Under the pieces are notes generated by a model. The model did not search any database. It was not told the origin of the DNA and worked only from the letters and a program-made list of their open reading frames with translations. A program made the translations under genes and the position numbers. This document shows positions 15,135-32,154 of a DNA stretch of 64,000 bases, one piece after another (position 1 is the first letter of the stretch; the number at the start of each line of letters is the position of its first letter). This DNA is from Acidimicrobiales bacterium (lineage in GTDB: Bacteria; Actinomycetota; Acidimicrobiia; Acidimicrobiales; Acidimicrobilacustridaceae), in contig JALOLR010000014.1 of assembly GCA_025455885.1 (NCBI GenBank), positions 1 through 64,000 of the forward strand. The letters are read 5' to 3'.

Positions 15135-15211
15135 GGGGCTGTAGCTCAGCTGGCTAGAGCACCTGCTTTGCAAGCAGGGGGTCGTGGGTTCGATTCCCAT
15201 CAGCTCCACCA
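15135..15211 (+). tRNA. tRNA-Ala(UGC)
   Basis: 77-nt cloverleaf with encoded CCA. Acceptor GGGGCTG pairs with CAGCTCC, the anticodon stem CCTGC/GCAGG encloses TTTGCAA with anticodon TGC at 15169-15171, and the T-arm is GTGGG-TTCGATT-CCCAT. Discriminator base A at 15208. Its 3' 45 nt are duplicated twice downstream, showing that the gene is the attachment site of integrated elements. Its T-loop has T at 15194, where both displaced copies have G, so the 3' half of the present tRNA gene was probably supplied by the most recent element. Confidence 0.98.
15165..15209 (+). repeat. att core copy 1 (attL, inside tRNA-Ala)
   Basis: 45-nt segment from the anticodon stem to the CCA end, repeated at 26426-26470 and 28012-28056 with one base difference (T at 15194, G in both other copies). 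Left boundary of element 1. Confidence 0.92.
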
Positions 15212-15258
15212 AGTATTTACTGGTGTTTCTGGGTTCAGCGAGGTTGCTGGGTCTGCGG

Positions 15259-15279
15259 TTGACACCGGGTTTGACACCG
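15259..15279 (+). promoter_or_regulatory. left-end TTGACACCG direct repeats (arm-type sites?) over the int promoter
   Basis: Two copies of TTGACACCG (15259-15267 and 15271-15279) in 12-bp phase, the first starting 50 bp from the att core. The same motif starts 50 bp from the core in element 2 and recurs at both right ends. The second copy could also serve as a -35 box for int, with a weak -10 TACCGT at 15297-15302 placing the transcript start at or near the int ATG. Inference: integrase arm-binding sites that also give autoregulation. Confidence 0.55.
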
Positions 15280-15310
15280 AATCGGCGTTTCCTCGCTACC
15301 GTGTCCCTCG

Positions 15311-16477
15311 ATGAAGGGCACAGCACGTAAGCGCGGCACTGACCGGTGGCAGATCCAGGTCTACGCCGGTGTCGATCCGGGCACGGGTCGCGAACGGCGC
15401 GTGACGCGCACGATCGTGGCGCCTCACACCAAGGCCGGGCAGAAGGCCGTCGACCAGGCCCTCGCCACGCTGATCCTCGATGTCGAGCATGGCCGAATCG
15501 GCGCCGGCGACGATCCGACGGTCACCGAGCTGCTGGATCGTTGGGTGCGAGCTCGTGAGCCCGAGTGGTCGCCGAAGACGACGCTGGAGAACCGTCGGCA
15601 GATCCGGTTGAAGATCGTCCCGAACATCGGCAACCGGCGCGTATCGAAGGTCCGAGCTGCCGACCTCGATCTGCTCTACGCCCAGCTCCGCAACGGGGGT
15701 GGCGAGACTGGTGGGCCCCTCTCGCCCGCATCGGTGCGACGCATCCACGTGATCATGCACGCCGCACTCGGCCAGGCCGTGAAGTGGGGACTGATCGCGA
15801 ACAACCCCGCCGACGCAGCGACGGCACCATCGTTGCCCCCGAGTCGGATCACGCCGCCCGAACCCGACGCGCTGGCCAGAGCGATGCGCCTCGTCGACGA
15901 GGGCGATATCGACTACGCGACCTACCTGCGGCTCGCGGCCACTACGGGCGCCCGCCGCTCGCAGCTGGTGGCCCTCCACTGGTCGGACATCGACCTCGAG
16001 GTCGGCACTGTGACGTTCTGCCGGGCGATCATCGACGGCGGCCCCGATGTCGGCCTGGTCGAGCGAGGCACGAAGACCGGCCGCAAGTGGAAGGTGGCCC
16101 TCGCCCCGGCAACGGCCGAGCGGGTCAGGGCGTTTCAGTCGGTCTGCGAGGAACGTGCAGCCGCAGTCGGCGTGAAACTCGATCGTGACGGCTACGTGTT
16201 CGCGGCCGAGCCCGACGGCAGCGCATCGTGGCGACCGGACAACGTCTCGGCACGCTGGCGTCGAATCCGGAAGGCGGCCGATCTCGACGGCGTGCGCCTG
16301 CACGACCTCCGCCACTACGTGGCCACCCAGCTTCTCGGTGCGGGGGTCGATCCCCGCACGGTCGCCGGCCGGCTGGGCCATGCCAACCCGGCGGTCACCA
16401 TGACCGTCTACGGCCACTTCCTCCCCGAGAAGGACCGAGCGGCCGCTGACTTCCTGGACGACCTGCTCGACGGCTGA
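15311..16477 (+). CDS. int: tyrosine recombinase / integrase
   Basis: 388-residue phage-type integrase that would catalyse integration and excision at tRNA-Ala. Residues 1-60 resemble an arm-binding AP2-like domain (WQIQVYAGVDPGTGRERR), 68-165 form the SAM-like core-binding domain, and 185-380 the catalytic domain. Catalytic residues are complete: Arg215 (TGARRSQL), Lys255, His331 and Arg334 (HDLRH), His357 (GRLGHANP) and nucleophile Tyr367 (MTVYGHF). The usual Glu three residues after the first Arg is Gln here. It begins 100 bp inside the element, pointing away from the tRNA gene, and converges with the excisionase gene. Confidence 0.95.
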   Translation: MKGTARKRGTDRWQIQVYAGVDPGTGRERRVTRTIVAPHTKAGQKAVDQALATLILDVEHGRIGAGDDPTVTELLDRWVRAREPEWSPKTTLENRRQIRLKIVPNIGNRRVSKVRAADLDLLYAQLRNGGGETGGPLSPASVRRIHVIMHAALGQAVKWGLIANNPADAATAPSLPPSRITPPEPDALARAMRLVDEGDIDYATYLRLAATTGARRSQLVALHWSDIDLEVGTVTFCRAIIDGGPDVGLVERGTKTGRKWKVALAPATAERVRAFQSVCEERAAAVGVKLDRDGYVFAAEPDGSASWRPDNVSARWRRIRKAADLDGVRLHDLRHYVATQLLGAGVDPRTVAGRLGHANPAVTMTVYGHFLPEKDRAAADFLDDLLDG

Positions 16478-16485
16478 CACGACAG

Positions 16486-16701
16486 CTAGGCCGCCTCGCC
16501 GCCGTGCTCGGCCGAGGACTCGCCGACGAGACGCTCCACGGCCCACGCCGGGATCAGTGTCCGTCGGGTGACACCGAGGTCAACGGACGGGAGCACGCCA
16601 TCACGCACCAGGCGGTCGACGGTCGGTCGCGACACGCCGAGCATGACGGCGACCTCACGAGTCGAGTAGGTCAGCCTCGGAAGTCTGGTGATCTCGGCCA
16701 T
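16486..16701 (-). CDS. xis: excisionase-like MerR/HTH DNA-binding protein
   Basis: 71-residue protein beginning MAEITRLPRL. A winged-helix/excisionase-type HTH spans about residues 12-50 (YSTREVAVMLGVSRPTVDRL, then VRDGVLPSVDLG). This is the family annotated as excisionase or helix-turn-helix-17 in actinobacterial islands. ATG 16701 is preceded by GGAGGAG six bases upstream. It converges with int, leaving an 8-bp gap, the usual int/xis neighbourhood. Predicted recombination directionality factor; its promoter is not obvious. Confidence 0.8.
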   Translation of the reverse strand: MAEITRLPRLTYSTREVAVMLGVSRPTVDRLVRDGVLPSVDLGVTRRTLIPAWAVERLVGESSAEHGGEAA

Positions 16702-16976
16702 GAGCTCCTCCGGCACGGGTGAAGAAGAGGGCGAGGCACGGGTCCGGCCCCGTCGCGATGGAATCCTCACCCTTCAGACCCACTCCCAACCTGCCCTCGC
16801 GTCGCGCGCGTTCGCGGATTTCCTTCGAGTCGGACCGGGGACCTCCCCCGGTCACGAGTGCGGAGCGCGATGCCATTCGGGACCCACGGACTGCACACGA
16901 CGAGCAGAAGGCACTGGTGGGTGCCCGTGGCCGGAAGTGTCGTCCTTCGGGTGCGGGCGGCGGAGCTTCGCCGGTC

Positions 16977-19225: not shown

Positions 19226-19402
19226 GGCGACGCTCCGATCATGACAGCGGTGGCTCGCACCTCCACCCGGGCCGAAAAGTCCCACGCTGCCCTCCGCCCC
19301 GGAGGATACGGGGTTGTGAGCGGTCACGACTGGGCAGGGATCTCCTAACGCCAAGAGCAGGGCGCAGGTTTGGCGGCCAAAGGCGGCTCGAGAGCACGGT
19401 GT

Positions 19403-19460: not shown

Positions 19461-19538
19461 TTTCCGCCATCGGCATCCCCGACCGCCGGGATGCGGCGTC
19501 GCTTAGCGCACGGACCCTGACGAACCCCGACCGGTGGA

Positions 19539-20444
19539 TCAGAAAGGTTCCTCATCAGGGTCGTACCCCGCCGGATTTGCCGCCACCGTCGGCTGGATGC
19601 TGTGTCGAGTCTCAATCTCATCGAGGATCCCGGTATTCACGACGGCGGCATCGCCCACCTCGACATTGGTCTTCTGCGCTCGTCGCAAAGTCGCAGCGTC
19701 TACGGTCGTCAGGTGGGATCCGTGGTCGCGTAACAGCGGCAGGGCTTCATTTGAAAACCTCCATGACGGCGACCTCGCGATCGCTTGAACCAGCGCCGCA
19801 GACATAGCTGCGCCACTCCGACGGTCAGTGAGCAGGAGCTTCACGATCTCTGGGGCCACCTGCTCCGGACGCTGACGGGCATTGATCGCCTGCTTGTTCC
19901 CAAGGAACCCGTGGGGGTCGACTTCGTAGGACAGCGAGATCACCGGTTGATGTCGGCCGAAGACGAAGCCAACCTCCTGGTCGCACCACCGACTCTCCAG
20001 AAAGTCAGCATGAAGCAGTGCAGCGAGCGCGTCGCAGGTCGCGAGCGATGCCTCGATGACCCTCTGCCATTCGCGGTTGGGCTCGATCGACACGTGGGCA
20101 ACGAAGCCCTCGATACCCCAGCGGCTGAGAGTCTGTGCGAGCTCAGTGGCCGTTGCCCTGTGCGCGGCCAGGTGGCTCAGAAATAGACGAAGCCTGTCCG
20201 CGTCCTGCCAGGGTTCATCCTCCGGTGCCGTGCTGGTGGCGCTGTGGAGATACGCGTCGAGAAGCAAGAGGGTCTCGTCGCTGGCATCCTCCACCGACCA
20301 AAGACAGCTCTCGTAGAGCTCGCCCTCCTCGTTGAGATGGCGGAGATTCGCCTGGCGCGCTATCAGCCCTGCGTCGGCCCACCCTTGTGCGGCGAGAGAG
20401 CGACTGACCTTCTTGATCAGCTCAACTCTCGTCCCAAAGTCCAT
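19539..20444 (-). CDS. TIR-domain protein, candidate NADase / anti-phage effector
   Basis: 301-residue protein. Residues 1-80 are helical (MDFGTRVELIKKVSRSLAAQ). Residues about 84-190 form a bacterial TIR domain: RLRLFLSH opens strand A, ASLATCDALAALLHADF is the strand D region, and SRWCDQE places a putative catalytic Glu157 as in TIR NAD+-cleaving enzymes. Residues 190-301 contain helices of unknown role. TIR effectors act in Thoeris, CBASS and related abortive-infection systems by depleting NAD+ or making signalling nucleotides. No SIR2, cyclase or other Thoeris/CBASS partner is adjacent, so it is either stand-alone or partnered by an unrecognised gene. Anti-phage role is inferred from fold plus island location. 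Confidence 0.8.
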   Translation of the reverse strand: MDFGTRVELIKKVSRSLAAQGWADAGLIARQANLRHLNEEGELYESCLWSVEDASDETLLLLDAYLHSATSTAPEDEPWQDADRLRLFLSHLAAHRATATELAQTLSRWGIEGFVAHVSIEPNREWQRVIEASLATCDALAALLHADFLESRWCDQEVGFVFGRHQPVISLSYEVDPHGFLGNKQAINARQRPEQVAPEIVKLLLTDRRSGAAMSAALVQAIARSPSWRFSNEALPLLRDHGSHLTTVDAATLRRAQKTNVEVGDAAVVNTGILDEIETRHSIQPTVAANPAGYDPDEEPF

Positions 20445-20551
20445 GACGCCACGCTAGGTCCCAGCGACCTCGTGGCCTTGGAACAACATGTTCATCGTGG
20501 GTTCAAGCCTCATCCTGCAGGAGTGTCCCAGAACGCCGGAGGTGGGAGGCG

Positions 20552-21395: not shown

Positions 21396-21462
21396 GTATC
21401 CCAGACCGCCGGGTCGAGGTGACGGGTCCAGTCCGCTCCGCTCGACGCAGCCCCTGACGGGC

Positions 21463-21849: not shown

Positions 21850-21933
21850 GAGAGCAAGCCTGGCATGCGCTTCGACCGTCTCCTATCGCCGGGTCTGAGT
21901 GTCGTTCCGGCAACTGCGTGAGTTACCCACTCC

Positions 21934-22410: not shown

Positions 22411-22546
22411 GAGGATCGACCCTATGCAGGTGGGCGGCCTCGGCGAGGGAGCGACCAACTGTCCTCCAACGCGCACGTCCCAAACGCCGGCAGAGTGACG
22501 CCTGGGAGATGTGCTGCACTAGAGACCTGGCCCAGAGGAGACTGTG

Positions 22547-22849
22547 GTGTACGGCGAAATGACGCCTGAGGAGCTACGTGAGCACCGGCGGAGCATCGCC
22601 GAGCACCGCCTCTCGATCGTCGAAGCTCTGCTCAGGGCCATCGATCTTGGCTGGCCGGTACTCGAAACGATCGAGAACTCCCCCGATCGATCGGAGGCTC
22701 GTCGCCGGTTGACGGACACTCCGTTCTCGTTCGATGAGGTGCAGGCAGAGCACGTGCTGGACATGCAGCACGGACGCCGCACCGAAGAGGGCCGTCGCTC
22801 TCTCAGCGAGGAAATGTCGGACTTGAAGCGCCTCCTATCCGAGAGCTGA
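22547..22849 (+). CDS. stand-alone GyrA-type coiled-coil (exit-gate) domain protein
   Basis: 100-residue protein that matches only the coiled-coil region of DNA gyrase/topoisomerase IV subunit A. EHRLSIVEALLRAIDLGWPV corresponds to the long helix, SPDRSEARRRL to the connecting segment and FSFDEVQAEHVLDMQHGR to the conserved 'LSEVQAQAILDMRLQRLT' turn of GyrA. The catalytic Tyr domain and DNA-wrapping C-terminal domain are absent. Small proteins of this type occur in actinomycetes, often misnamed gyrase subunit A. It may dimerise through the exit-gate surface. GTG 22547 follows AGAGGAG six bases upstream; GTG 22544 and ATG 22559 are alternatives. Confidence 0.7.
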   Translation: MYGEMTPEELREHRRSIAEHRLSIVEALLRAIDLGWPVLETIENSPDRSEARRRLTDTPFSFDEVQAEHVLDMQHGRRTEEGRRSLSEEMSDLKRLLSES

Positions 22850-22969
22850 AGCGGCACGCCACGCACCGTCGCTGCCCCTAAGGGCCTCCGTTACCTATCC
22901 CTGAACGCCGGGAGCACGCGGGGCCAATCGCCGTCGAACAGGACCACACGCTCGGCTACCGTCGGCTCG

Positions 22970-23464
22970 ATGAGGGCGGTGCGGTTCATTGCGGGGGTTG
23001 TGTTTGTGGGTGCGGCCTGTGCGAGCTGCGGGAGCCCATCGGCTTCCACGGCTCCGCCGACCGTTCCCGCCACTGCCGCTCCGACCTCCGTGGTCGACGG
23101 AAGCTCTCCCGCCCTGTCTGCGAGCAGTTGCCGCGATCCCCAACCCTCAGTGGTTGTCTGGCTCGCGATAGATGCGACCTCAACACAGGTGGATGCGGTC
23201 AAAGCGAGCCTCATCGCGACCAGCGGCGTCGACCAGGTCATCTACATCGACAAGGACGCGGCCTACGCGGAGTTTCGCGAGCTCTTCCCGGATTCCCCGG
23301 AGATGCTTGCTTCGGTCAAGCCGGCGGATCTGCCCGCAAGCTTCAGAGTCGTGACCACTGCGCCCCTTCCGATCGGGACGGTGGACAACTGGTCCTCGAT
23401 ACCCGGCGTCGACTCCACGACCCTCAATCCGTGCCAACCACAGGAGGTTCCGCCGACGAAATAG
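22970..23464 (+). CDS. lipoprotein with FtsX extracellular-domain-like fold (island cargo)
   Basis: 164-residue exported lipoprotein. Signal residues 1-16 lead to a Cys-rich lipobox (VGAACASC; Cys17 or Cys20). After a Ser/Thr/Pro linker, residues about 60-130 read VVVWLAIDATSTQVDAVK, then VDQVIYIDKDAAYAEFREL and LPASFRVV. This is the signature order of the FtsX extracellular domain, the loop by which FtsEX activates peptidoglycan hydrolases during division. The four FtsX membrane helices are absent. It may bind an FtsEX-controlled hydrolase or mimic the FtsX loop; that is inference. Confidence 0.75.
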   Translation: MRAVRFIAGVVFVGAACASCGSPSASTAPPTVPATAAPTSVVDGSSPALSASSCRDPQPSVVVWLAIDATSTQVDAVKASLIATSGVDQVIYIDKDAAYAEFRELFPDSPEMLASVKPADLPASFRVVTTAPLPIGTVDNWSSIPGVDSTTLNPCQPQEVPPTK

Positions 23465-25579: not shown

Positions 25580-25766
25580 GACACCCTATTCAGCTCCTCT
25601 ACCGCAATCGTGGCCCCCGGTGCCCCTAACGCCGGGCACTGGTCGCACCAGGTGGCACTCGTGACACGGTGCTTGGTTCTGCACCGGAGCGACTCAGTTT
25701 TCACCGCCCAGAGCTCAGCTGCTTGCTCACTCCTGGTCGGCGGAGGACTGTGGGAAGCTCCTGCAC

Positions 25767-26219: not shown

Positions 26220-26254
26220 CTCAACGAGCGCTGCATCCTGAGCTTCGGGTGGCC

Positions 26255-26425
26255 CAGTCCAGTTCCTCGACATCGCCGAGACGGCTCAGCTACGCGACTC
26301 CCAACGCGGCCTGATCTGACACCGGATTGACACCGGACTTGGCGGTTCCGGTGTCATTTTCCGGCTCTCGGCGCTCATTGGTGAGCCATATGTGCTGCTA
26401 GAGCCGCTGCTGCGCGACTTGAGCG
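26255..26425. repeat. right-end sequence of element 1, repeated at 27842-28011
   Basis: About 170 bp preceding att copy 2 is nearly the same as the segment before att copy 3, including GACATCGCCGAGACGGCTC, the TGACACCGG sites, CCGGCTCTCGGCGCTCAT and GCAATATGTGCTG-like words. It contains no gene. Confidence 0.85.
26317..26356. promoter_or_regulatory. right-end arm-type site cluster of element 1
   Basis: TGACACCGG at 26317-26325 and 26328-26336 (11-bp phase) and the inverted copy CCGGTGTCA at 26348-26356. They start 109, 98 and 78 bp before the att core, the same distances as in element 2. Likely binding sites for integrase arms or excisionase. Confidence 0.55.
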
Positions 26426-26470
26426 GCTTTGCAAGCAGGGGGTCGTGGGTTCGAGTCCCATCAGCTCCAC
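26426..26470 (+). repeat. att core copy 2 (attR of element 1 / attL of element 2)
   Basis: 45-nt copy of the tRNA-Ala 3' segment with G instead of T at 26455. Only the 3' half of a tRNA is present (no acceptor 5' strand or D-arm before it), so this is not a tRNA gene. Confidence 0.92.
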
Positions 26471-26519
26471 TCAGTACTTGCTGGTATTTCTCGGTGCCGC
26501 TGGGTTGCCCATGCGGCGG

Positions 26520-26527
26520 TTGACACC
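26520..26527. promoter_or_regulatory. left-end TTGACACC site of element 2
   Basis: TTGACACC begins exactly 50 bp after the end of the att core, as in element 1. Only one clear copy; the second position is degenerate (TTGGGCTGA). Confidence 0.45.
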
Positions 26528-26663
26528 ATGGGTTGGGCTGACGTCGCCGGTGTAGCCGATGACGCCTACGCGGCCTGCAACGGCACGGCGCCGGGCTGCC
26601 AGCCGGCTTCATCGGTGGTGCTACGATTCCCGAATTCCACAGGGTGAATGAGGGAAGTGGCAC

Positions 26664-27386
26664 ATGCGAAACCCTTTGGCACGGAGGCGATTCGTCGCGA
26701 CGCTCACATCCTTTGTGCTCGCTGTGGCCGTTGTCGTGGTCGCACCGGGTTCGGCCGGTGCTTCAGGCGCGACGCTCGTGATCAACAGCAACACCAGCTC
26801 CATCTATGGCGGTTTCAGTAGCACGGACTCCGGCACGACCTGGTCGAGCTACTACCAGTTCATGCAGACCGGCCGCGACACCAGTTCGTCCCTCCTCGTG
26901 GAGGAGTTTCGCTGGGCGTTCGAGCTCCCGCTCGCGGCCCTGCCGACCGACGCGACCATCACCAGCGCGATCCTGCAACTGCGCACGGCTAATCCCGACC
27001 TAGCCGGCCAAACCGCTCTGGTGGGGTACGCAGGCGACGGCGCAGTGACGCTCGGCGATGCCGATGTCATGGGCCCACAGGTGCTGTTCACCCCCACAGT
27101 CCCCGCCTACCAAGCGGTGGACGTGACCACATTGATCACGGCCGGGGCCCGCTCAGCCGGATTTGTCGGGTTCTCGTTGCGCCAATCGCCCGTGGGCAGC
27201 ACCTACACCCTCTGGGACAGTCCTGAGTTCTTCAACCCTCCGTTTCTGACCATCACCTACACGACCCCTGATCCGACAACGACAACGTCGACCCCACCGA
27301 CCACCTCCACGGCCGATTCGTCGGTCACGACCCTCGACGTGAGTGTCTCGGCGGGTGGCGAAGTCGTTCCCGCCTTCACCGGCTGA
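26664..27386 (+). CDS. secreted protein ending in VPAFTG (element 2 cargo)
   Basis: 240-residue exported protein. Sec signal: RRRF, hydrophobic core VLAVAVVVVAPG, cleavage near AGAS (about residue 33). Residues 35-175 form a beta-rich domain (ATLVINSNTSSIYGGF, FELPLAALPTDATITSAILQL, FVGFSLRQSPVGSTYTLWDS) with the layout of the DNRLRE/CBM-like sandwich that binds surfaces or glycans. Then comes a Thr/Pro linker and the end GGEVVPAFTG-stop. The last five residues recur at the end of the protein at 54847. PAFTG resembles sortase sorting motifs (LAxTG) but no hydrophobic anchor or basic tail follows. It is unknown whether this is a sortase substrate. Confidence 0.8.
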   Translation: MRNPLARRRFVATLTSFVLAVAVVVVAPGSAGASGATLVINSNTSSIYGGFSSTDSGTTWSSYYQFMQTGRDTSSSLLVEEFRWAFELPLAALPTDATITSAILQLRTANPDLAGQTALVGYAGDGAVTLGDADVMGPQVLFTPTVPAYQAVDVTTLITAGARSAGFVGFSLRQSPVGSTYTLWDSPEFFNPPFLTITYTTPDPTTTTSTPPTTSTADSSVTTLDVSVSAGGEVVPAFTG

Positions 27387-27571
27387 CCGGAGATCGCCGG
27401 ACGATCCTGCCAGTCCGGGCCCCGGGTCCCGACCTCGGCTCGGCCCAGCACCGCGGGGAAGGCTCAGGGGTGAAGGCGGATCAGTGTCCCAGACCACCGG
27501 TCATACGGGTGACGGCGCGACCACCATCCCAGAACGGCTCAGCGCATGAGACCGTCGACCTTGCTCCGGGC

Positions 27572-27817
27572 CTACCGCGGGGGCCGCTTACGCTCGTTAC
27601 GCCTTCGGACTGGATCCAGACCGAATGCGTCCGGGAACCAGATGACCATGGCCCCGCACCCGGCCACCGCCATGAGCAATCCCGCGTTCCTGAGCCACGC
27701 CGGACCGATGAACGCAGAGGCGACGAGCAGCGCAAACCCGAGAACTACGGCGATGGCGCGTACGCCATAGGCGAGCGATAGCAATCCACTCCTGAGCCCG
27801 TCCTTCTCGCGTCGCAC
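27572..27817 (-). CDS. small two-TM membrane protein
   Basis: 81-residue membrane protein with a GTG start at 27817 (M-RREKDGLRSG). Two hydrophobic segments, about residues 16-34 (YGVRAIAVVLGFALLVASAF) and 43-60 (AGLLMAVAGCGAMVIWF), and a strongly basic C-terminus (RRRNERKRPPR). Upstream frame reads into the element's right-end repeat and is not protein-like, so the downstream start is used; ribosome-binding site is weak. Function unknown. Confidence 0.45.
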   Translation of the reverse strand: MRREKDGLRSGLLSLAYGVRAIAVVLGFALLVASAFIGPAWLRNAGLLMAVAGCGAMVIWFPDAFGLDPVRRRNERKRPPR

Positions 27818-27841
27818 GGAGGCGACGTACCCCGTCCTCAC

Positions 27842-28011
27842 CAGTCGAGTCCCTCGACGTCGCCGAGACGGCTCTGCGACGCGACCCCAACGCGGCGTGA
27901 CCTGACACCGGATTGACACCGGACTTGGCGGATCCGGTGTCATCTTCCGGCTCTCGGCGCTCATCGGTGAGCAATATGTGCTGGTAGAGCCGTCCTTGCG
28001 AAACTTAGGCG
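27842..28011. repeat. right-end sequence of element 2, repeated from 26255-26425
   Basis: Non-coding copy of the element 1 right end. It keeps TGACACCGG at 27903-27911 and 27914-27922, and CCGGTGTCA at 27934-27942, 109, 98 and 78 bp before the att core. Confidence 0.85.
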
Positions 28012-28056
28012 GCTTTGCAAGCAGGGGGTCGTGGGTTCGAGTCCCATCAGCTCCAC
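28012..28056 (+). repeat. att core copy 3 (distal attR)
   Basis: Third copy of the 45-nt tRNA-Ala 3' segment, with G at 28041 as in copy 2. What follows (CCATCTCCCCACGG) is unlike the element left ends, so this is the outer right boundary and probably the chromosome's original tRNA 3' end. Confidence 0.92.
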
Positions 28057-28127
28057 TCCATCTCCCCACGGTTCAGAGGACCGCCTCGCTCATCCCGACC
28101 GGCGATCCGTGTCGGCACGCGGTCGAG

Positions 28128-28454
28128 CTACTCGGAGTCGTCCCATTCGCTGTCGAGATCGAGCCGGATGTAGAGGAGTTCGATCGACCCGTCAGAGGTC
28201 CTCTGCCCGATCACCGCGACACCGCGCACTAGGACGCCGGCCGAGATCAGCAGTCGGTAGTCCGGACGACCGCTCACGGCCTCCGGCAGTTCGTCGAAGC
28301 GGGTGGCGAAGGCGTCGACGATCGGGAGCAGGTCGATGGTCAGGAAGTCGTTGACCGAGGGCTCGCCACCGGGGCCGCGATCGGTGCCGAGGACCCGGTC
28401 CAGCTCGTCGAACACCGCGTGCGAGACGCGAACTGAGCGCCGCTCCTCGCTCAC
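28128..28454 (-). CDS. possible toxin-like partner protein, unknown family
   Basis: 108-residue protein with a GTG start at 28454, eight bases after the stop of the small gene upstream. It reads SEERRSVRVSHAVFDELDRVL at the N-terminus, then a helical region (FLTIDLLPIVDAFATRFDEL), and ends with beta strands DYRLLISAGVLVRGVAVIGQ and IELLYIRLDLDSEWDD. The helix-then-sheet order and small size recall RelE/ParE-type toxins, but no catalytic residues could be matched. Together with the 59-residue gene before it, the layout is that of a toxin-antitoxin operon. Confidence 0.55.
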   Translation of the reverse strand: MSEERRSVRVSHAVFDELDRVLGTDRGPGGEPSVNDFLTIDLLPIVDAFATRFDELPEAVSGRPDYRLLISAGVLVRGVAVIGQRTSDGSIELLYIRLDLDSEWDDSE

Positions 28455-28461
28455 CGAGCGG

Positions 28462-28641
28462 TCAATCGGTGGGCTGGGACTCGTGAGACTCGATGAGACG
28501 GTCGGCGTCGGCCCGGACCTGGTCGAGGAACTCGGAAGGAACCGAGTCGAGGTCGGTGACCACGCTCTCGTCGAAGATGGCCTGCTGCTGGCGGCGGCTG
28601 AGGTTCTCCATCTCGGCGGCGGTCCAGACCTTGCGTGCCAT
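28462..28641 (-). CDS. 59-residue antitoxin-like protein
   Basis: Very short gene: MARKVWTAAEMENLSRRQQ, then AIFDESVVTDLDSVPSEFLD and RADADRLIESHESQPTD. It is charged and almost wholly helical. The pattern 'WTAAEME-L...QQAIFDESVV-DL---P-EFL--VR' matches small actinobacterial proteins that precede an unknown second gene, in the manner of antitoxins. ATG 28641; stop 28462. Next gene begins eight bases on. No HTH or ribbon-helix-helix can be assigned. Confidence 0.6.
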   Translation of the reverse strand: MARKVWTAAEMENLSRRQQQAIFDESVVTDLDSVPSEFLDQVRADADRLIESHESQPTD

Positions 28642-28770
28642 CCGGTCACCCTACCCGGGCGGTCCGACAGCGAACAGGCCACCACCGCACTCTGACGTCG
28701 CCGCGAATGGATCCAGCAGCGGGAGGACCGTTCCTTGCCCGATCGGAATGGGGCCTGGGAGGATGCGTGC

Positions 28771-31362
28771 GTGTCAGGCAGCGGGGGCAACGGGGTGGAT
28801 GGACCTGACGACGACCACGCTCGTCCCCGGCGCGCGGTCGCGCGCAGGACGGCCTTCCGACCGCCCCGGCTCGTCGGGCGAGACGCCGAGATCGCCGAAC
28901 TGACCAAGGTCGTCGAATCGACACCGTTGACCACCGTGACCGGCCCCGGTGGGGTCGGAAAGACGGCGATCGCCCTCGCCGTCGCCGACGCCACGGAGGA
29001 GCGCTTCCCCGACGGTGTGTTCGTCGTCTGGCTCGCGTCGTTACGGTCGGCCGACCACATCAGCAGCGAGGTGGCCGCGCAGGTCGGGATGCCGCGGTCG
29101 GGCGGTGAGTCCTACGAGGACGCACTCGTCCGCTGGCTGGCCGAGCGTGACGTGCTCCTCGTGCTCGACAACTGCGAACACGTCACCTCCGCCGTCGCCG
29201 AACTCGTCGAGGACCTGACCGCCCGGCTTCCGGGTCTGAATGTGCTGGCGACGAGCAGAGAGCCGCTCTGGGTCGTCGACGAGATGACCTACCGGCTGGC
29301 GCCGCTGACGGTCGCGGAGCGTGAGGCGACCGGCGAAGAGATCGACTCGAGCCCGGCAGTGCGCCTCTTCCGGGAACGCGCCGGCGCCCGGATGCAGGCC
29401 TCGCTCGAGACGGACGACGCCGGTCGTCTCATCGCTGATATCTGCCGTCGGGTCGACGGCCTTCCGCTCGCGATCGAGCTCGCCGCGGCACGGGTGGCAG
29501 GACTCGAGCTGGTGGACATCGAACGTCACCTCGATGAACTGTTCGAGTTGCTCCCCCAGTCGGCCCGCCGGGTCGACGGCGCCCAGCGGTCGCTTCGCGC
29601 CACGGTGGAGTGGAGTGACGCGCTGCTCCGGGACGACGAACGGCGCCTGCTGCACCGGATGGGGGTGTTCGCTGGAGGGTTCGACCTCACTGCGATCGAG
29701 GCGGTGTGCGCCGACGACGGCCAGACCGCAGCACAGGTCGCGGACCTGACCGCGCGCCTCGTCGAGAAGTCACTCCTCATGAAGCAGGAAGGCGGCGGCC
29801 CGTACCAGCTGCTCGAAACGATCCGCCAGTACGCGACCGAACACCTCGACGCCGCGGGAGAGCTCGGCATCATCCGTGACCGCCACGCTCGCTACTACCT
29901 CGACCTCGCCATGCAGGAAGGAGCGGCGACGCTCGCCGGCCCGGAACGTCCGCACCTGGAGGTGCTCCGCCGCATCGACGACAACACCCGTGTCGCGCTC
30001 GAACGCCTCCTCTCGATCGATCCGACGGCAGCACTGGAGCTGGCCGCGACCCTGAACAGCTACTGGTGGACCCAGGGCAAGCTCCGCGAGGGCATCACCT
30101 GGCTCGAGCGGGGGCGCGCGGCGGTGCCGGACGCACCGGCCGAGCTGCGCGCCACGAGCCTCTTCTGCGAGGCCTTCCTCATCGCCCACGACACCGACGA
30201 CTGGCAGGCCGCGGCAGCCCTGCTCGACCTCGGGATCGCAGCCATCGGCGATGCTGCCGATCCCCCGCTCATCCTCGGCATGCTGCACTGCCTGCGCGGC
30301 GAGTGCGACGTCTTCGCCGGCGACGCGCCGGCGGCGGTGGTCCGCACCGAGACGGGGATCGCGATCTCGTCCCGGTACCCCGACTCGTGGGGGCACGGCT
30401 TCTGCCTCTGGAACGCCGCGTTCGCCCGCCTCAACGTCGGCGACGACGACGCCGCTCTCGAGTTGCTGATGCAGATGCTCGACGTGACGACCGCCGGCGG
30501 CTACGCGATGCCGGGTTTGGTCTGCGAGCAGTCGCTGGGCGAGATCTGGGAGGCGCGCGGCGAGCTCGACAAGGCCCGGTTCTTCTGGGAGGAGGCGCTC
30601 CGCCATCGGCGGGAGCTCGGTGCGCTCCGCACCGGGTACGTGCACGGCTCCATGGCGACCGGGCTCCTCGCAGTGGCGCGGGTCGCCGTCGAGCAGGGCG
30701 ACCTGGAGACCGCGGCGAGCCTCCTGCGCGAAGGTCTGCCCCTCGCGGAGGAGATCCGAGACGCCGACACGGCCGCGAAGATGACCGAGCTCCTGGCGAG
30801 GACATCACGGTCGGCGCCGGTGGAGCGGGCGATCCTCCGACCGGAGGACGGAGTCTGGCGCATCGAGTTCAACGGCACCGAGGTCCACGTGCCCGACCTG
30901 AAGGGGCTCTGGCATCTCCGCGAGCTCGTCTGCCGACCCGGTGAGCCGGTATCGGCCCTGGCCTTGGTCGGTGCATCGGCGGACGAGGCGATGCACCGAG
31001 GGGACACCGGTCCACTGCTCGATCGCGAAGCCCTGAGGCAGTACCGGCGCCGGCTGGCCGAACTGGACGACCGGCTGGACGATGCGGCTCTGCGGGGAGA
31101 TGCCCGGCGGCAGGAGGAATGGGCCGCCGAGCGAGACGCCCTGATCAGAGAGCTGAAACGGGCGACAGGGCTGCAGGGCAGGCCGCGCCGGTCGGGCTCA
31201 CCGGCGGAGAGGGCCCGCCTCAACGTCACGAGGACGATCCGCCACGCGATCGCCGAGCTCTCGGCGAAGGCGCCCGATCTGGGCGCACATCTCGATGAGT
31301 CGATCGTGACGGGGGTCTCGTGCTGCTACGAGCCGCGAACCCCGGTCTCGTGGTCGACCTGA
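28771..31362 (+). CDS. STAND/NB-ARC ATPase with TPR-like region and conserved C-terminal domain
   Basis: 863-residue signalling ATPase. A basic N-terminal stretch leads to the NTPase: P-loop GPGGVGKTA (residues 58-66), Walker B LLVLDNCEH (about 129), sensor TSREPL, and the GLPLAIELAAAR motif typical of AfsR/LuxR-type STAND proteins. A winged helix and repeat region (about 350-680, Ala/Leu-rich TPR-like pairs) follow. The C-terminal about 180 residues carry EVHVPDLKGLWHLRELVC, a coiled coil, and SPAERARLNVTRTIRHAIAEL ending with SCCYEP. That conserved domain is seen on actinobacterial ATPases and cyclase-linked proteins in place of an HTH. GTG 28771 with GGGAGG eight bases before. Could be a regulator or a defence-type sensor. 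Confidence 0.85.
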   Translation: MSGSGGNGVDGPDDDHARPRRAVARRTAFRPPRLVGRDAEIAELTKVVESTPLTTVTGPGGVGKTAIALAVADATEERFPDGVFVVWLASLRSADHISSEVAAQVGMPRSGGESYEDALVRWLAERDVLLVLDNCEHVTSAVAELVEDLTARLPGLNVLATSREPLWVVDEMTYRLAPLTVAEREATGEEIDSSPAVRLFRERAGARMQASLETDDAGRLIADICRRVDGLPLAIELAAARVAGLELVDIERHLDELFELLPQSARRVDGAQRSLRATVEWSDALLRDDERRLLHRMGVFAGGFDLTAIEAVCADDGQTAAQVADLTARLVEKSLLMKQEGGGPYQLLETIRQYATEHLDAAGELGIIRDRHARYYLDLAMQEGAATLAGPERPHLEVLRRIDDNTRVALERLLSIDPTAALELAATLNSYWWTQGKLREGITWLERGRAAVPDAPAELRATSLFCEAFLIAHDTDDWQAAAALLDLGIAAIGDAADPPLILGMLHCLRGECDVFAGDAPAAVVRTETGIAISSRYPDSWGHGFCLWNAAFARLNVGDDDAALELLMQMLDVTTAGGYAMPGLVCEQSLGEIWEARGELDKARFFWEEALRHRRELGALRTGYVHGSMATGLLAVARVAVEQGDLETAASLLREGLPLAEEIRDADTAAKMTELLARTSRSAPVERAILRPEDGVWRIEFNGTEVHVPDLKGLWHLRELVCRPGEPVSALALVGASADEAMHRGDTGPLLDREALRQYRRRLAELDDRLDDAALRGDARRQEEWAAERDALIRELKRATGLQGRPRRSGSPAERARLNVTRTIRHAIAELSAKAPDLGAHLDESIVTGVSCCYEPRTPVSWST

Positions 31363-31375
31363 TCACTTCGCAGCC

Positions 31376-31396
31376 TGGTTCGTTCGGAACGAACCA
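31376..31396. promoter_or_regulatory. 21-bp palindrome, putative operator
   Basis: TGGTTCGTTC-G-GAACGAACCA: two 10-bp arms around a single central base, 73 bp before the next start codon and 14 bp after the ATPase stop. CGAACGAAC recurs at about 31408. The absence of a loop argues for a protein-binding operator rather than a terminator. Confidence 0.6.
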
Positions 31397-31468
31397 CCGA
31401 TCAGGCCCGAACGAACGCCTTTCCTGTGGGTGGCACCACGGCCGCCCACGAGAGAAGGACGGTACGAG

Positions 31469-31729
31469 ATGTTCGTGACGGTCATCCATCGAATCCACGA
31501 TCCCGAAGGCTTCCAGGCCGCCGAGGCGAAGGCGCTCGAGGCCGGGCTGCCCACCCACGTCGCACTTCCGATCCATGCGGCGACGAACGACCACGGCCTC
31601 GGGGTCTGCATCTGGGAGGGCGAGTCGGTCGAGGCGGTCCGTGAAGTGGTCGAGGGCGCCGTCGGGGCTTGGGCCGACAACGAGTACTACGAGATGCAGG
31701 TCGACGGGCTCACCCCGAGCTTCGCGTAA
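31469..31729 (+). CDS. small alpha/beta protein, DUF4242-like?
   Basis: 86-residue protein MFVTVIHRIHDPEGFQAAEA followed by VALPIHAATNDHGLGVCIWEG, VREVVEGAVGAW and EYYEMQV. The beta-alpha-beta-beta-alpha-beta pattern is that of ferredoxin-like dimeric barrels (EthD/DUF4242 class). No active-site residues can be named. ATG 31469 has GAGAAGGA upstream. Preceded by a 21-bp palindrome, so probably regulated. Confidence 0.65.
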   Translation: MFVTVIHRIHDPEGFQAAEAKALEAGLPTHVALPIHAATNDHGLGVCIWEGESVEAVREVVEGAVGAWADNEYYEMQVDGLTPSFA

Positions 31730-32154
31730 CGACCGCCAACGCACGCCGGCCGGGCGCCTGCGGCCCGTGTGGATCCGCTGACCGGGGACCGTTCCAGAGA
31801 TGGGCCCCGGTCAGCGATCCGGAACACCGATCGGCGTGGCCATGCCCTCGAAGAACCGCGTGCGCGGGTTCGAGAGCAGTCCCATCAGCTCTACCCAGAG
31901 GCACCCGGCAGGAACATCACACCTGTGACCATGCCGATCCGGCGCACATCGCCCGCACCGGAGTGGCGCTGCGGCGTATGCTCGCCTTGGCGGGTTCGCT
32001 CACGATGTGGAGCGAGGGGGCCAATGCAGCACCAGCGACTGGAAGCGCGATCCCTGGTTCGAGGGCACCCTTCCGGAGAACGACCCTGCGCGCGACCCCG
32101 CCCACCCTGTCGCGCCGGCGATCCCGCAGTTCTGACGACGCTCCTCGGATCTTG
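31730..32154. other. 425-bp intergenic stretch with a degenerate tRNA-3'-like sequence
   Basis: At 31866-31895 GGGTTCGAG, four or five extra bases, and TCCCATCAGCTCTACC resemble the att core (GGGTTCGAGTCCCATCAGCTCCACC). A GTG-initiated small frame lies at 32007-32135. Otherwise nothing recognised. Confidence 0.45.
32007..32135 (+). CDS. possible 42-residue protein or gene remnant
   Basis: Short frame M(GTG)ERGGQCSTSDWKRDPWFE, then LPENDPARDPAHPVAPAIPQF. Its codons follow the high-GC third-position pattern of the chromosome, unlike the surrounding sequence, and the composition is protein-like. There is no ribosome-binding site, so it may be a leaderless small gene or the decayed 3' end of a larger one. 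Confidence 0.3.
   Translation: MERGGQCSTSDWKRDPWFEGTLPENDPARDPAHPVAPAIPQF

Follow-up and report, generated by a model that had tools for sequence, protein, structure and literature searches.

A probable CIME-type element without an integrase, in tandem with a tRNA-Ala integrative element, and cassette-like joints in an Acidimicrobiales genome

Small DNA units that keep both attachment ends but encode no enzyme to act on them raise the question of what they are and how they came to be where they are. Such a unit, here called element 2, lies next to a longer element carrying an integrase gene (element 1) in a 64,000-nucleotide stretch of an Acidimicrobiales genome (contig JALOLR010000014.1), hereafter the window. 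An initial annotation made from the letters of the sequence had proposed that element 2 is a miniature satellite mobilised by the integrase of element 1, or possibly a deletion product. Based on the analyses presented here, we consider it fairly probable that element 2 is instead a non-autonomous, tRNA-Ala-anchored element of the CIME type, whose ancestor, a relative of element 1, lost its integrase, and which stands in tandem with an element 1 that arrived later and whose own cargo is organised in the manner of cassettes.

The locus is built on an intact tRNA-Ala (TGC) gene, detected with ARAGORN on the forward strand at 15135-15211, the 3' part of which serves element 1 as attachment site on its left. 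A 45-nt segment of this 3' part is present as three direct repeats on the forward strand, one within the tRNA gene (15165-15209), one separating elements 1 and 2 (26426-26470) and one at the outer boundary of the tandem (28012-28056), and these copies bound both elements in the order tRNA, element 1, att, element 2, att. The annotated att core on each side of element 2 was thereby confirmed, and the unit itself is real, although its annotated span of 26471-28011 falls slightly short of the 1,586 bp that separate att from att (26426-28056 including the outer core). The three cores differ at a single position, 15194, which is T in the tRNA copy and G in both distal copies; G is also found at the matching position in another genome of the same genus (G001). 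Since T at 15194 occurs in the intact tRNA only, it would have been brought with element 1 by a crossover to the left of this position, from which we infer that element 1 arrived last. An unoccupied site with matching flanks was not found; the tRNA-Ala gene of G001 is intact, its contig stops ~420 nt further on, and at this gene it has essentially only the tRNA in common with the window. Further downstream in the window, a degenerate tRNA-Ala 3' fragment (GGGTTCGAGAGCAGTCCCATCAGCTCTACC) at 31862-31894 may represent the outer end of an older element spanning 28057-31894, a region in which a gene for an NB-ARC/TPR regulator is also located.

The kinship of the two elements is recorded in their ends, and the possibility that this similarity is confined to the tRNA part can be dismissed. 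With the tRNA part set aside, elements 1 and 2 share 150 of 165 aligned nucleotides (91%) in their right ends (26254-26425 and 27841-28011), with an alignment score of 240 against a best score of 25 in 500 shuffles, and the homology sets in sharply at 26254 and 27841. The left ends (15210-15283 in element 1 and 26471-26534 in element 2, all ends being read on the forward strand) match over ~60 nt outside the tRNA part and are more diverged than the right ends, their score of 44 comparing with maxima of 31 in 2,000 shuffles and 34 among ~3,000 random segments of the window. A related left end and a nearly identical right end, as annotated, are thus supported. Additionally, the words TTGACACC/TGACACCGG are found at all four ends and at one further place in the 64-kb window (55358), and at the ends they are placed as arm-type integrase sites would be. 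In both right ends they follow the same layout, with two direct copies 11 nt apart and one inverted copy (26317, 26328 and inverted 26347 in element 1; 27903, 27914 and inverted 27933 in element 2), and in the left ends there are two copies in element 1 (15259 and 15271) and one clear copy in element 2 (26520). As a ten-letter form of the arm word with one mismatch allowed was not enriched across the whole window, the case for these repeats rests on their position and not on their count.

With cores on both sides and end homology reaching beyond the tRNA, element 2 has kept both attL and attR, and the genes between them include none for integration or transfer. On the forward strand it encodes a secreted protein of 240 aa (26664-27386) with a weak, below-cutoff DNRLRE-like match. 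The last residues of this protein, VVPAFTG (27350-27386), resemble a cell-wall sorting signal cut before the membrane helix, and the protein is possibly truncated, as judged from its sequence. On the reverse strand lies a small membrane protein of ~89 aa (27572-27841), which is the inner part of a 165-aa open reading frame that spans the right end together with the tRNA fragment; both annotated cargo genes thus hold, except that for the second the full frame is too long and only the inner ~89 residues make a plausible protein. These are the only two reading frames of note, and neither gave a Pfam or NCBIfam match to a recombinase, an excisionase or a transfer gene, in line with the annotated lack of an integrase. 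Since its ends are complete and no integrase is present, element 2 would be movable only by the integrase of another element.

The left end of element 2, with one of the two arm-like repeats retained, and the secreted protein stopping straight after the sorting-signal-like PAFTG, and therefore perhaps truncated, could also be read as signs of an immobile relic, whose ends have drifted and which merely marks an old insertion. Its ends may indeed no longer work, given the single clear repeat on the left. At the right end, however, 91% identity to element 1 is combined with three exact arm-like repeats and an intact core, and we regard a mere relic as unlikely.

Element 1 opens with a gene for a tyrosine integrase of 388 aa (15311-16477, forward strand; Pfam Phage_integrase, 2.2e-22), followed by a convergent gene for an excisionase-like HTH protein of 94 aa (16486-16770, reverse strand; TIGR01764 excise, 5.8e-10). 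This integrase is the obvious candidate for acting on element 2. Its relatives in phages are distant, with at most 32% identity among the matches listed, and none was confirmed in the viral contigs scanned. No conjugation gene was recognised in either element among the proteins scanned. The further cargo of element 1 includes a TIR-domain protein (19539-20444) with weak, below-cutoff similarity to Thoeris-type TIR proteins, a 101-aa protein (22544-22849) that matches the DNA gyrase/topoisomerase IV subunit A model below threshold, and a product in which an FtsX extracellular domain was recognised (22970-23464).

The similar right ends and the adjacent position in the tandem might suggest that element 2 was derived from element 1 itself, either by internal deletion or by a local duplication of the right end with captured DNA. 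Against such a derivation, which we find very improbable, the right ends are ~9% apart and the left ends more so, and the two interiors share no significant similarity by blastn; tblastx between them returned merely scattered short GC-rich matches. A simple deletion of element 1 was rejected on the same grounds, the ends having diverged and no interior being shared. Where the initial annotation allowed for a deletion product, the leading reading is that a relative of element 1 lost its integrase, a direct deletion of element 1 itself being unlikely. The ends are related, yet the interior of element 2 shows no trace of int or xis, which weighs against an origin by integrase loss.

Whether element 2 exists anywhere else bears directly on the satellite proposal. 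The secreted protein had no match in 98 relatives, in 326 other genomes of the order (a sample overlapping with the 98 relatives) or in 72,556 plasmids, and no viral contig scanned yielded a confirmed relative. Likewise, no second copy of the unit at an independent site or in another genome was found among the relatives, the order sample and the plasmids, so that the unit was not seen apart from element 1 in any of these collections. As queries including the tRNA part return floods of tRNA genes, in plasmids as well, the ends were searched for with their non-tRNA part and with a profile built from four right ends, for which matches below ~25 bits were treated as chance. Strong profile matches (397 genomes of the order, 37 of the family) were limited to two in the window, one in G006:C36 and two in G364:C23, and none of the weak blastn end matches whose sequence was inspected was a convincing element end.

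In G006:C36:2070-3400, the right end is followed in order by a different tRNA-like 3' part, an apparent scrap of an integrase C-terminus, a toxin-antitoxin-like pair and a xis gene 70% identical to that of element 1, and from its sequence this neighbour of the element 1 type seems to have lost its integrase. In G364:C23:14901-16285, two diverged right ends facing outward enclose a ~1.4-kb piece lacking an integrase and carrying a Fic-domain gene; the piece sits between CoA-transferase-like and phosphorylase-like genes, and no integrase relative was found near it in the 32 kb examined. The Fic gene is apparently shortened at its N-terminus compared with its relatives in G428 and G142, which are without element ends, and the relatives of G364 offered no clean empty site. 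Since this type of right end is conserved in both genomes, and in G006 stands beside another tRNA-like 3' part, it can be regarded as one half of an attachment site and not as a product of tRNA similarity. Both sets of ends look like relics with a missing or broken integrase, and we do not take the G364 piece as proof of active mini-elements.

For an active, MITE-like miniature satellite, spreading as a unit by means of an element 1-type integrase acting in trans, one can point to the compactness of element 2, to its ends resembling those of an element with an integrase, and to the same right-end type bounding the piece in G364, with no integrase relative in the 32 kb examined there. The evidence on the other side weighs more: element 2 is present in a single copy, its main gene is absent from the genomes and plasmids searched, and the outward-facing right ends and the shortened Fic gene suggest that the G364 piece is itself a relic. 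An independent satellite, as first annotated, was consequently not borne out, and we consider it distinctly unlikely.

Under the favoured reading of an integrase-deprived CIME, a relative of element 1 would have lost its integrase while keeping both att sites, giving rise to element 2, and element 1, with int and xis, would next have integrated beside it in the same tRNA gene by tandem accretion. The Int and Xis proteins of element 1 would then recombine attL, the middle att and attR, and could release element 1 (~11.3 kb), element 2 (1.59 kb) or both together (~12.8 kb). The cargo of element 1, and possibly that of element 2, would consist of cassettes joined by a short directional site, on which a separate XerC-like recombinase encoded elsewhere in the genome probably acts.

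This second part of the proposal, which had escaped the initial annotation, starts from a motif, TCCCNNAACGCCGG, which together with its relatives occurs between the genes of element 1 and points in one direction irrespective of gene direction. The cassette-like site measures ~25-30 nt, is directional and has the spacer NNAACGCC. A matrix that draws solely on sites beyond the window (the external matrix) picked out five sites in element 1, with 14-29 bits and all on the forward strand. Four of them are strong (19476-19489 with 21.4 bits, 20526-20539 with 22.9, 21399-21412 with 28.8 and 21879-21892 with 27.8) and the fifth, at 22898-22911, reaches 14.5 bits. The TIR-domain gene described above lies alone in one cassette-like interval. 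With an earlier matrix, based on sites from contigs C10 and C7 of the same genome only, nine sites of at least 10 bits were found in the element region against a shuffle mean of 0.5, with one in the other 51 kb. Further possible sites at 19341, 22477, 24737, 25622 and 27487 are weak or shifted. That at 25622-25635 (forward) is a possible degenerate copy, found by pattern match and scoring only 5.7 bits, and that at 27487-27500 (forward), the possible site of element 2, scores 6.9 bits ungapped with the external matrix and resembles a site at C7:11357 in the same genome, the GGGTGACG block being shifted in both.

The same genome contains two clusters of such sites, on contig C10 (108873-119977) and on contig C7 (10836-14993). 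Both flank a 1.6-kb unit, ~90% identical between them, which encodes a XerC/XerD-like tyrosine recombinase (113104-114069 on C10), and the sites on either side point toward this unit. Positions that were not used in choosing the sites are conserved as well, chiefly G at +20 and C at +24. Genome-wide counts, obtained by pattern searches, gave a strong enrichment in this genome (21 against 1 in the control) and an excess in several others. In G004, belonging to another genus of the family, ~ten sites in the same direction were found within 7 kb of contig C22, and exactly one site-to-site unit is common to the two genomes (C7:14438-14999 and G004:C22:152216-152777; 87% identity). Compared column by column, the shared homology in this one example starts within one site and stops within the next, with unrelated sequence beyond. 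Members of the recombinase family (~75% identity) are present in G005, G093, G045 and G060, where the matrix finds few sites, and the link between recombinase and site therefore rests mainly on the genome of the window. On these sequence patterns, the joint appears to serve a separate integron-like system of this genome as its recombination site.

The C10 array is enclosed by a 17-kb tRNA-Leu element (G000:C10:103771-120862), in which an integrase gene adjoins the tRNA-Leu gene (103771-103857), whose 3' part recurs without mismatch over 55 nt at 120808-120862. Because the array is situated inside this element, at least two tRNA-anchored elements of the genome carry such sites, the tRNA-Leu one with the cassette recombinase and element 1 without it. 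A further integrative element occupies a tRNA-Arg gene (G000:C2:144781-155745); a 40-nt repeat recurs there exactly after 10.9 kb, and the integrase of this element shares 37% identity with the element 1 enzyme. We tentatively propose, as a plausible reading still short of being the probable one, that Acidimicrobiales have a cassette system distinct from integrons, with a XerC-like recombinase, short asymmetric sites and arrays of small genes, which rides in tRNA elements moved by a second, ordinary integrase. In this scheme, elements 1 and 2 would carry arrays but lack the cassette recombinase, and element 2, as the smallest carrier, would rely on others for either kind of movement.

Among known systems, accretion in ICE/IME tandems is described as one way in which a CIME comes to lie next to an element with an integrase (PMC5704250), including the ICESt1-type tandems of Pavlovic 2004 as cited in that work. 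This known class fits element 2 as well as or better than a satellite. Element 2 is like a CIME in keeping att on both sides, in having no genes for integration or transfer and in standing in tandem with an integrase element at the 3' end of a gene; it differs in its size of just 1.6 kb and in that neither element has a recognised conjugation gene, and its mobilisation is putative. In Dehalococcoides, integration modules are missing from 15 known ssrA islands, for which the same route has been suggested (PMC3146451). These islands likewise form tandems at an RNA gene, flanked by direct repeats and in some cases without an integration module, whereas their target is ssrA and their cargo is unrelated to that of the elements described here.

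The cassette-like arrays resemble integrons and CALIN arrays (PMC11389934) in having sites in the same direction between small genes, in occurring both with and without a recombinase, and in a site-to-site unit common to different genomes, the cassette as mobile unit being represented by the one example of C7 and G004. They differ in that the recombinase is XerC/XerD-like (44 bits with TIGR02249 against a cut-off of 265, and 106 bits with the XerC model against a cut-off of 335), and in their sites of ~25-30 nt, in which a complementary second half was not detected. Pairing between a site and its flanks was no higher than with mismatched flanks (39 sites, 8 of them entered 7 nt out of register and the other 31 correctly), unlike the two halves of an attC hairpin. 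Integron attC sites were accordingly rejected as an explanation of the joints, there being no second half and no IntI. The pdif (dif) modules of Acinetobacter plasmids (PMC6449649, PMC13141974) are also gene modules bounded by short Xer-type sites, but the inverted orientation of pdif sites is not seen here, where the sites run in the same direction along each array arm and, in two arrays, a dedicated recombinase gene lies between the arms. No description of such a cassette system was found in open-access full texts, with searches partly on other topics, which speaks weakly for its novelty. By itself, element 2 adds another case of hitch-hiking mobility; greater weight attaches to the cassette-like joints. 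If such arrays are indeed built by a XerC-type recombinase acting on simple double-stranded sites, the stockpiling of genes in the style of integrons evolved more than once, and its coupling to tRNA-integrating elements would let whole arrays travel.
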